A stretch of 60,379 nucleotides of DNA, taken from Dehalococcoidia bacterium (GTDB lineage: Bacteria > Chloroflexota > Dehalococcoidia > CAUJGQ01). Of this stretch, positions 16,364 through 19,440 are shown piece by piece; position 1 is the first letter of the stretch, and each line of letters begins with the position of its first letter. The notes below the pieces were generated by a model, which saw nothing but the letters and a program-made list of their open reading frames with translations, ran no database searches and had not been told where the DNA came from. The stretch lies in contig DATGEL010000096.1 in the NCBI GenBank assembly GCA_035310145.1, forward strand, positions 1 through 60,379, written 5' to 3'. The position numbers and the translations under genes are program-made.

Positions 16364-16786
16364 GTGTTCAATGGAATACGCCGGTGGTTCGCCCGGCTGC
16401 GCGGCGAGAAAGCGCAGGACGATGCCATGCTCGTGATCGGCCTGTTGCCCAACGACAGCGACGCCGATATCGCGCTCAATAACCTGGCCGAGGCCGATTT
16501 CGCGTCGCGCCAGATCTCCGTGCTTACCAGCGATCCGCTGCGCACCGCGGCCCTGACTGACACGCCCGGCGACTGGGGCCAACTGACGCCCGCCGCCGCC
16601 GTGGAACGCATGCGCACGCTCGGTGTAGCGGATGCCGACCGCCAGACAGTTACCACCGGCCTGAGCAACGGCGGCGTGCTGATCGTGATCCGCGCCGCCA
16701 ACGCCAGCACTACCGCCGCGCAGGAGATGCTGGCCGATCAGAAAGCAACGCTGGTGCGGGCCGTGAAAGAACGGCGAGGCCAATAA
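16364..16786 (+). CDS. Small protein resembling general-stress (YflT-like) domain
   Basis: A 140-residue protein. The segment MLVIGLLPNDSDADIALNNL, the QISVLTSD strand and the later GGVLIVIRA strand give an alternating beta/alpha pattern resembling the small YflT/general stress 17M type; the match is by eye and tentative. I start it at GTG 16364 (VFNGIRRWF), with AAAGG upstream at a long spacing; the frame is open further back to 16253. Its TAA stop overlaps the ATG of the next gene, so translation is probably coupled. Confidence 0.55.
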   Translation: MFNGIRRWFARLRGEKAQDDAMLVIGLLPNDSDADIALNNLAEADFASRQISVLTSDPLRTAALTDTPGDWGQLTPAAAVERMRTLGVADADRQTVTTGLSNGGVLIVIRAANASTTAAQEMLADQKATLVRAVKERRGQ

Positions 16787-17448
16787 TGTACCGCGGCACC
16801 AACAGGTACATCAACATCGCCGTGATCGTCCTGCTCGTGATCGTCATCGTGATCTTGCTCGTCAGCCGCAGCGGCGGCGGCGGTTCAAACCCGCCGTCTG
16901 CCAATACTCCGGGCGGCGGTACCTCCTCAAGCGGCTCGCCCGGCGGTTCGTCTGGAGGCTCGTCCGGCGGTTCAGCCGGCGGCTCCGGCAGCGCGCCGGG
17001 CAGCGGCGGCGCGCCGCCCCCGTTGGGTCAGCGTACAAAGACCGAGGGCTGCACGGCCAACGGCAAATTGCAGGATCGCGCCTGTACACCGGGCGCCATC
17101 ATCGCCAGCGCAACCAAGGACCAGATCTGCGTGCCCGGGTACTCCCGTGGAGTGCGCAACGTGCCGATCGAAGAGAAGGACCAGGTCTACGCCGAATATG
17201 GCATCGACCATCACTCGCCCGGTGAGTACGAGGTGGACCACCTGGTGAGCCTGGAGCTGGGCGGCTCGAACGAGATCGCCAACCTCTGGCCGGAAGCCGC
17301 CTCGCCGGAGCCGGGCTTTCACCAGAAGGACCGCTTCGAGAACTATATGCACGACCAGGTGTGCAGCGGCGCGATCAGCCTGCAAGAGGCGCAGCGGCGC
17401 ATCGCCGAGGACTGGCTGAAATACTGGCAGGAAGCCGGCCAGCCGTAG
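16786..17448 (+). CDS. Membrane-anchored HNH endonuclease-like protein
   Basis: A 220-residue protein. One N-terminal membrane span (about 9-28, INIAVIVLLVIVIVILLV) precedes a low-complexity Gly/Ser linker (about 29-75, with GGSSGGSSGGSAGG) and a C-terminal domain with the HNH core EYEVDHLVSLELGGSNEIANLWPE and a following HQKDRFENYMHDQVCSG. Four Cys in the domain suggest disulfides, consistent with a location outside the cytoplasm. The ATG overlaps the stop of the preceding gene (TAATG). A secreted nuclease for environmental DNA is one possible role; not established. Confidence 0.75.
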   Translation: MYRGTNRYINIAVIVLLVIVIVILLVSRSGGGGSNPPSANTPGGGTSSSGSPGGSSGGSSGGSAGGSGSAPGSGGAPPPLGQRTKTEGCTANGKLQDRACTPGAIIASATKDQICVPGYSRGVRNVPIEEKDQVYAEYGIDHHSPGEYEVDHLVSLELGGSNEIANLWPEAASPEPGFHQKDRFENYMHDQVCSGAISLQEAQRRIAEDWLKYWQEAGQP

Positions 17449-17706
17449 CCCGCGCCCCACCAGGCCCATAGCGCTGCGGCAGAGCCACACGCGGCGAATG
17501 TCCAACGCGCGCCGCGGCGGCGGCGGACAACCGCGCGAAGCCGGGCTCTCAGCCGTCGCGCGACGAGGAGCGCATGGACACCGCCTATCAATCGAAGGCC
17601 TGGCAGGTGCTGTTCGGCGCGGTGGCAGGCGCCGCGGCGGCGTTGCTGGGACCGCTCTTCGTCGCGCTCTCGCTCAACCCACGGCAGATCATGCCGGACC
17701 CCGCCC

Positions 17707-17760
17707 CACACCTCGTCAGGTGATGGTATCCATCGGTGGGCCGTTCGGTTGACCGGTGAC
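17707..17760 (+). repeat. Left terminal inverted repeat of the element
   Basis: 54 bases pairing with 18954-19007; mismatches at eight positions. The preceding eight bases (17699-17706) are the left copy of the CCCCGCCC target duplication. Confidence 0.88.
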
Positions 17761-17841
17761 GCGCTGAGATGTCACATGCACCAGCCGACGTCCTGTGGCT
17801 GACCTTCCTCCTGCACGGGGACCAGAGCCGGGGCGGCTACC

Positions 17842-18795
17842 TCAGCCGGTGAGCGCCTGCTTGAGCGCCGCCATGCGCAGCGTGTGCGCCGTTTGCGTGA
17901 GGCGCGCCGAGAGCGCGAATTCGAAGGCGTGGTAGGCGCCGGGGTAGACGTGCAGTTCCACCGGCACGCCCGCCTGCATCAGCCGCTGCGCGTAGGCGAT
18001 GTCCTCGTCGCGGAAGAGGTCGGCGGTGCCCACGTCGAGGTACGCGGCGGGCAGGCGGGCCAGGTCCGTGGCGCGGGCGGGGGCGGCGTAGGGCGAGACG
18101 CCCTCCGTGCCGGCCTGGTCGCCGAGCAGCGCCTGCCAGGCGTTGAGGCTGGTGGCACGGTCCCAGATGCCCACGTCGGTGATCGCATAACTGGAGGGGG
18201 TCGTGTTGCGGTCGTCGAGCATCGGATAGATGAGCATCTGGTAGCAGAGCGCCGGTCCACCGCGGTCGCGGGCCAGCAGCGCGGTCCCTGCCGCCAGCCC
18301 GCCGCCCGCGCTCCCGCCGCCGATGGCGAGCCGAGTAGCGTCAATGCCGAGCTCGCCCGCGTGCGCGGCCGTCCAGACCAGGCCCGCGTAGCAGTCTTCG
18401 ACCGGTGCCGGGTGTGGGTTCTCAGGCGCCAGCCGGTATTCTACCGACACCACCACACAGCCGATCTGCTCGACGTACTGGCTCAACCGCGCGTTGTCGG
18501 CATCCAGGTTGCCCATGATCATGCCGCCGCCATGCATAAAGTACAGGCCGGGCAGCCGGGTGCTGGTCGGGATGCCCTTCGGACGGTAGATGCGGACCTT
18601 GACCGCGGGCGCACCGGCCGGGCCGGGCACCATGCGGTCCTGCGCCGCCACGTGCTCGCTCGGCGGCAGCACCGGGAAGGCGCCGGCCAGCGCGGCACGG
18701 CTGGCCGCCAGGTCGTCAAAGTTGAGCAGGCTGAGGGCGCCGGCAATGCCCGCGCGGGCCTCGGCAAGCTCCGGGTCGATCAGCACGGACGGCAT
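17842..18795 (-). CDS. Alpha/beta-hydrolase (hormone-sensitive lipase-type esterase)
   Basis: A 317-residue serine hydrolase of the HSL/acetyl-esterase type. The oxyanion motif is HGGGMIMG, the nucleophile Ser is in GGGSAGGG, the acid is likely in DLFRDED, and the His is in GAYHAFE. It likely hydrolyses short-chain esters; substrate unknown. I start it at ATG 18795, with GGGGGTG about 7 bases upstream; the frame is open to 18876. It is the only gene in the 1301-bp element and runs opposite to the interrupted host gene. It looks intact. Confidence 0.9.
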   Translation of the reverse strand: MPSVLIDPELAEARAGIAGALSLLNFDDLAASRAALAGAFPVLPPSEHVAAQDRMVPGPAGAPAVKVRIYRPKGIPTSTRLPGLYFMHGGGMIMGNLDADNARLSQYVEQIGCVVVSVEYRLAPENPHPAPVEDCYAGLVWTAAHAGELGIDATRLAIGGGSAGGGLAAGTALLARDRGGPALCYQMLIYPMLDDRNTTPSSYAITDVGIWDRATSLNAWQALLGDQAGTEGVSPYAAPARATDLARLPAAYLDVGTADLFRDEDIAYAQRLMQAGVPVELHVYPGAYHAFEFALSARLTQTAHTLRMAALKQALTG

Positions 18796-18953
18796 CGCGT
18801 TCACCCCCGCCCCGTTTCGGCCGTAGTCTACGCCGCTGTGCAGAGCCGCGAAAGGCCGCACGGCACCGCACGGCACTGAAGTGGGGAAGCGGGGCCGTGC
18901 CGGACCCGGCTGGGTCCTGGGCTGGGGGCAAGCGCGCTCGGTGAGTACAGCCG

Positions 18954-19007
18954 GTCATCGGTCAGGCGAACGACCCACCGGCGGGTACCATCACTTGACG
19001 AGGTGTG
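18954..19007 (-). repeat. Right terminal inverted repeat of the element
   Basis: Inverted counterpart of 17707-17760. The next eight bases (19008-19015, CCCCGCCC) are the right copy of the target duplication. Confidence 0.88.
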
Positions 19008-19378
19008 CCCCGCCCACGCGGCACGGGCGCGCGAGGCGCCTGGCGGCCTGCTGATCCTCTCTGCTGGCCGTGATTGTGTTGATTCCCGGCCAGGACCGAC
19101 GGGTGCTGGGCGTCGAGCTGCTGCTCGGCGGCGTTCTGGTTGCGCTCAGCGTGCGCCTGCAAAGCCGAACCCTGGGCCGCCTGGGCGGCGGACAGCGGCT
19201 GGAGTGGGCCGCACGCATCTTGCCCTTCAACCTCGCCACGCTCGCCGTGCCGGTCGCCGGCGCGAGCCTGCTGGCGGGCCACTTCGGCGGGCTCTACTGG
19301 CTCACGCCAATCGTGCTGATCTCCCTGTTGCGCTCGGTGCTGAACGCCTGGACGCTGCTGGTTCGCGTGGCGGAGCCT

Positions 19379-19440
19379 CGCCTCACCCCCTGGCCCCCTC
19401 TCCATGAAATGGAGAGGGGGGATTCATGGAGAGGGGGAAG
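19379..19440. repeat. Palindromic repeat (copy R6)
   Basis: The perfect 12-bp stem 19394-19405 with 19409-19420 is identical to the copy at 3915-3941. It is followed by an extra partial right arm (ATGGAGAGGGGG at about 19425-19437), as if one arm was duplicated. It marks the 3' end of the split membrane-protein gene and the 3' end of the convergent GNAT gene. Confidence 0.78.

Follow-up and report, generated by a model that had tools for sequence, protein, structure and literature searches.

A transposase-free esterase cassette in a Dehalococcoidia genome, very probably a non-autonomous derivative of transporter IS that are distant relatives of IS481

Structure of the esterase cassette and its insertion site

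The window analyzed here, a stretch of 60,379 nucleotides from a Dehalococcoidia bacterium, contains an element of 1301 bp (17707-19007; Table 1) whose only gene encodes an HSL-type esterase. The gene is, judging from its sequence, complete: the predicted protein matches Pfam Abhydrolase_3 (5.9e-60) and has the HGGG and GGSAG motifs plus the Asp and His positions of the triad, while its best NCBIfam match is the LipP1-type hormone-sensitive lipase at a score under the model's cut-off. Solved structures close to it are the lipases 7wol and 7b4q and the heroin esterase 1lzk, and its nearest plasmid-borne relatives, from Streptomyces and Nonomuraea, share 58-59% identity. Neither the list of open reading frames nor a transposase search of the genome revealed a transposase within the element, in agreement with the sequence-only reading, which had noted an HSL-type alpha/beta-hydrolase as the sole gene; a promoter and terminator scan across the element found none.

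The gene is bracketed by terminal inverted repeats (TIRs) of 60 nt that are 83% complementary, with the outer 54 nt matching at 46/54, and the whole is flanked by an 8-bp target duplication, CCCCGCCC, that is exact on both sides; the segment, its inverted ends and its perfect duplication had thus been correctly placed by the earlier reading. To judge these ends against chance, every pair of inverted ends that is spaced by 300-3000 bp and flanked by an exact 8-bp duplication was scored across the whole 60-kb window, with 15 first-order Markov simulations of the window as the null. The pair of the element ranks best in the window at 46/54, compared with 28-32/54 for the best pairs of the simulations (n=15). 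The divergence of its TIRs, to 83%, makes an old insertion probable.

When the element and one copy of the duplication are removed in silico, MDTAYQSKAWQVLFGAVAGAAAALLGPLFVALSLNPRQIMPDP joins AHAARAREAPGGLLIL and then, past one frameshift, LAVIVLIPGQDRRVLGVELLLGG. Since the halves rejoin in this way, the element sits inside one ORF, and it reads as interrupting a single membrane-protein-like frame that has been frameshifted since. That is, the segment is not in an uninterrupted ancestral setting, the arrangement that would have counted against a mobile element. Searches of 245 class genomes (E<=1e-8) and of plasmids for an orthologue of the interrupted ORF, which would represent the empty site, returned none, and the two pieces matched no Pfam family. 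Upstream, an ORF at 16786-17448 encodes a hydrophobic N-terminus, a long Gly/Ser-rich linker in which a 24-bp unit is tandemly repeated (16931-16985) and, at the C-terminus, a stretch like an HNH-type nuclease (DHHSPGEYEVDHLVSLELGGSNEIANLWPE), with no Pfam match.

Table 1. Features of the window element and of related elements in the same genome
Feature	Location	Strand	Details
5' part of interrupted target ORF	17574..17706	+	MDTAYQSKAWQVLFGAVAGAAAALLGPLFVALSLNPRQIMPDP...
Target duplication, left copy	17699..17706	.	CCCCGCCC, 8 bp, exact
Left TIR	17707..17766	+	60 nt; begins CACACCTCGTCAGGTGATGGTATCCATCGGTGGGCCGTTCGG
Esterase gene, HSL-type	17842..18795	-	317 aa from ATG at 18795; ORF extendable to GTG at 18876
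Subterminal region	18872..18947	-	Homologous to leader upstream of C97 transposase gene
Right TIR	18948..19007	-	60 nt; transposase-proximal end by homology
Target duplication, right copy	19008..19015	.	CCCCGCCC, 8 bp, exact
3' part of interrupted target ORF	19016..19381	+	...LAVIVLIPGQDRRVLGVELLLGG...; one later frameshift
C97 element	C97:6672-9547		2876 bp; 50-nt TIR, 92%; exact 8-bp duplication CTGAGGGC
C62 element	C62:11272-14198 (L018 773-3699)		2927 bp; duplication GTCCACAC
C42 element	C42:53744-55402 (L017 1245-2903)		1659 bp; duplication CGCTCAA(G)
C77 element	C77:28382-29380 (L019 2883-3881)		999 bp; duplication CTGCGGAG

Related elements in the same genome

The source genome (5.32 Mb in 148 contigs) holds four further elements with related ends, named here after their contigs. 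C97 encodes an apparently intact DDE transposase of 607 aa together with a short-chain dehydrogenase (SDR) as cargo; C62 carries genes for a peroxiredoxin-like protein and a TetR regulator beside the broken C-terminus of a transposase (a relic); C42 has an APH-type kinase gene and C77 a gene for a 138-aa protein with a signal-like hydrophobic stretch at its start, predicted to be a small secreted protein, and both are devoid of a transposase. The duplications at C42, C62 and C77 are perfect or near-perfect and 7-8 bp long. A further transposase C-terminal relic, 63% identical, lies at C103:5063-5539, and no ends were found around it.

Over 137 bp, made up of its right end and the 77 bp next to it, the window element is 67% identical to C97, where the matching stretch comprises the transposase-proximal end and the leader. 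Between its TIRs and those of C97, 31-37/50 positions agree (62-74%, vs. ~13/50 for shuffles); the inner ends of C42 match its TIRs at 30-32/37, and its first 21 bases agree with those of C77 at 20/21. Because of these end and leader matches to C97, C42 and C77, the window element is, on sequence comparison, a member of the group formed by C97, C62, C42 and C77. Hence, the two observations that were proposed as support for a mobile element, matching ends around a transposase (C97, with TIRs up to 74% identical and its own 8-bp duplication, CTGAGGGC) and around other genes with such duplications (C42, C62, C77), were both made. The ends most like those of the window element sit on elements that themselves have no intact transposase, and the genome assembly yielded no intact transposase between ends that come close to identity with those of the window element, the nearest being C97. 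Accordingly, the suggestion that a full-length relative with matching ends mobilized the cassette holds insofar as such a relative exists, but with ends only 62-74% identical C97 may not be the cognate helper. Likewise, the IS-like nature of the vehicle was borne out, whereas its role in spreading an esterase beyond one copy was not, as the esterase cassette is single-copy.

The ends of C42 and C62 are nested, with an outer inverted pair and a second pair ~120-220 bp inside; the inner pairs resemble the inner TIR of the window element, and complementary stretches of ~22 nt lie between the pairs. Inside C77 lies a unit of 246 bp that has inverted ends of its own (CACACCTCGCCAGGTGATGGT...); it may be a MITE that has one terminus in common with the larger element.

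The transposase family and its distribution

The C97 transposase combines HTH domains with an rve-type DDE core in which the catalytic residues D310, D371 and E406 are conserved with the spacing D-D-(34)-E. Its nearest NCBIfam model is IS481 (8.5e-46), which it fails at 156.7 bits vs. a curated cut-off of 224. In the alignment and tree, 15 members split from three annotated IS481 transposases with support 100/100 on a long branch; all 15 aligned members have R at E+7, and transposases of the family are ~550-600 aa long. The D-D-(34)-E spacing and the R at E+7 that characterize the family are seen in the relatives, the window copy being without a transposase. No meaningful solved structure was found for the transposase by sequence.

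Relatives of the transposase (43-54% identity) are present in 18 of 399 other sampled Chloroflexota genomes (19/400 including the source genome) and also on plasmids of Herpetosiphon and, from two other phyla, of Rubrobacter and Abditibacteriota, and none were found in phage records. Within the class sample (393 genomes, E<=1e-40) the source genome was the only positive one. Similarly, no copies of window-type ends were found elsewhere, that is, in one genome of the genus and 393 genomes of the class, the source genome excepted. The possibility of a new element family, raised at the outset, has gained from these results: related transposases and ends recur, and no description of the C97-type family was found in the open-access literature. 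We regard the family as undescribed only provisionally, since ISfinder and subscription papers were outside the scope of the literature search.

Cargo, ends and target duplications across the family

The cargo sample comprised 20 transposase-bearing elements with both ends mapped, from ~16 genomes. Cargo was present in 14/20, at element sizes of 2.6-5.0 kb, and the other six were near base size (1.93-2.22 kb). In the autonomous members one end is followed after ~80-215 bp by the start of the transposase gene, and in 13 of the 14 cargo-bearing elements the cargo is on the 3' side of that gene, the exception being locus L101. The products are diverse: besides the SDR of C97, they include an isochorismatase-type hydrolase (L101), an aldo/keto reductase (L125), serine beta-lactamase-fold hydrolases (L126, L136), a RibD-type reductase with an AraC regulator (L128), a DinB-type protein (L129), an MFS transporter with a dual-specificity phosphatase (L131), an epimerase with an MmyB-like regulator (L133), an APH kinase (L138), a DUF3237 protein next to a relic of IS630 type (L124) and, in L103, L140 and L099, proteins that fall in no named enzyme family.

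Across 20 end pairs (40 ends, with the C77 locus counted twice), the start consensus is (G/C)ANAC(C/T)TCG(C/T)CA, with A4 in 39/40 and C5 in 40/40 ends. Perfect duplications of 7-9 bp flank L132 (GGTTGCAC), L096 (CGCCGCAG), L098 (TGACAGAG), L124 (GTGAGAAA), L129 (GCAACGCCC), L133 (AGCATAC, 7-9 bp) and both of the copies on Herpetosiphon plasmids (L134, L135), while those at L126 and L140 are imperfect. One Herpetosiphon member, of 1955 bp, has near-perfect ends. The window element has both the C97-type ends and the ~8-bp duplication of the family; a duplication is absent at L103, L125, L128, L130, L136 and L138. An automatically called duplication at L138, TCGGCGAG, was discarded, as it lies inside the palindromic terminus of that element.

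An exact-pattern scan of contigs for the ends gave one match, at the edge of a Pelomonas contig: the 21-base C77-type end CACACCTCGCCAGGTGATGGT occurs exactly at L026 41-61 (Pelomonas sp. BJYL3), 40 bases from the edge, where it adjoins a permease-like gene and may be the end of an element truncated by the assembly. A degenerate end-pattern search of 20 genomes returned matches barely above a reversed-pattern control, with several true-looking ends standing solo, and established no transposase-free cassettes outside the source genome. Such solo family-type ends (GAAACCTCGCCACGGATGGTTTACAAATCC...), with a partner undetected within 6 kb, were seen at L174-L180 (G700, G710, G695), and L178 and L179 also contain fragments of the C97-type transposase.

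Origin of the cassette

We consider it very probable, from the homology of its ends and leader, that the window element is a non-autonomous derivative, of MIC type (see below), of a family of transporter IS whose relationship to IS481 is distant. Under this model, the C97-type family would be defined by a DDE transposase of ~550-600 aa, inverted ends of ~50 bp and a target duplication of ~8 bp; in autonomous members, a cargo bay would extend from the stop codon of the transposase gene to the distal end. Acting either in trans or, before its loss, in cis, the transposase would bind the two ends and join them across an 8-bp stagger to the target, here the membrane-protein-like ORF, and gap repair would give the CCCCGCCC duplication. 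We infer end binding, strand transfer and mobilization in trans by the C97-type transposase. The window copy would have become non-autonomous by losing its transposase, leaving the esterase between a retained transposase-proximal end of ~137 bp and a distal end of ~60 bp, and the esterase would presumably be expressed after a move. Cargo might be acquired through a second distal-like end downstream or through the nesting of two copies, the latter being suggested by the doubled ends seen in C42 and C62.

Alternatively, an autonomous IS carrying both transposase and esterase may have inserted at this site and lost its transposase in place later, in which case the cassette as it now stands would never have moved. 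This is a serious possibility, though one we lean against. A single internal deletion in a C97-type element with 3' cargo would give the architecture of the window element, a partly deleted transposase adjoins the cargo in C62, and the divergence of the window TIRs points the same way; yet no transposase remnant is recognizable between the esterase and the right leader, and the three cargo elements of this genome without an intact transposase (window element, C42, C77) also fit cassettes mobilized in trans. We find it improbable that the esterase was instead caught between two unrelated or nested family ends, either from two IS copies or as ends within ends, because, while C42 and C62 do show nested inverted end sets ~120-200 bp apart, the window element has just one, simple pair of ends, its duplication matches them, and no nesting was seen there. 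Finally, a host esterase gene lying by accident between inverted repeats and a G+C-rich 8-mer is a thought prompted by a region of 70% G+C and by the low-complexity word CCCCGCCC, but its probability is negligible: the 46/54 match stands against at most 32/54 in simulations, and the finding of matching ends at a transposase and at other genes refutes it.

With the window element read as a non-autonomous derivative, the larger interest lies, as far as ~16 genomes allow, in the frequent and orderly cargo of the C97-type family. Gene-carrying IS are known but are usually counted as exceptions; here 14/20 carry cargo, nearly always on the same side, and transposase-free cargo cassettes share a genome with an apparently intact transposase. 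It is conceivable, at a likelihood we would put a little short of even, that an IS481-related, Chloroflexota-centered family acts as a routine carrier of single genes, with most copies having a gene or two for detoxification-type enzymes, kinases or regulators in a fixed 3' bay and with transposase-free cassettes, the esterase element among them, moved in trans, which would amount to cassette exchange outside integrons. If a larger survey agrees, the family would represent a compact route of gene exchange in Chloroflexota, and it offers a natural system for asking how an IS captures single genes.

Comparison with known systems

The window element resembles the MICs of Bacillus and Proteeae, in which a passenger gene lies within IS-type inverted ends without a transposase, as in MIC231 (Bacillus cereus, IS231A) and the qnrD mic; MIC231 relies on the IS231 transposase, and its mobilization in trans has been reported (PMC3913671). 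The likeness consists in an esterase bracketed by 60-nt TIRs, the lack of a transposase gene, an exact target duplication (CCCCGCCC) and ends that match those of a full-length IS, C97, moderately (62-74% over 50 nt), with a homologous leader. The IS231 transposase belongs to the IS4 family. The relatives of the window element differ from MIC231 in having a DDE transposase of IS481/IS3-like type and target duplications of ~8 bp.

The C97-type elements, with additional ORFs alongside the transposase, are comparable to transporter IS (tIS), i.e., single IS with extra ORFs besides the transposase (PMC9330008, PMC7986276), examples of which in the IS1202 family are ISKpn21, ISKpn65 and ISRel10 (PMC10132070). 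However, IS1202 members are mostly 1.3-1.7 kb long, have duplications of 3-5 or >15 bp, or none, and have Q at E+7 (PMC10132070), whereas the C97-type family measures ~1.9 kb without and 2.6-5 kb with cargo, duplicates ~8 bp and has R at E+7 (15/15), and thus falls outside IS1202.

The closest likeness of the transposase is to IS481, which gives the best NCBIfam match and shares the HTH and rve domains and the D-D-(34)-E spacing. The IS481 family typically has TGT...ACA ends. Its duplications are mostly 6 bp, and TGT ends are stated for IS481EU relatives (PMC10045372). In contrast, the C97-type transposases score under the cut-off, are ~550-600 aa long compared with 363-392 aa for the three annotated IS481 proteins and form a separate clade, and their elements have (G/C)ANAC ends and ~8-bp duplications, which places the family beside IS481 rather than within it.
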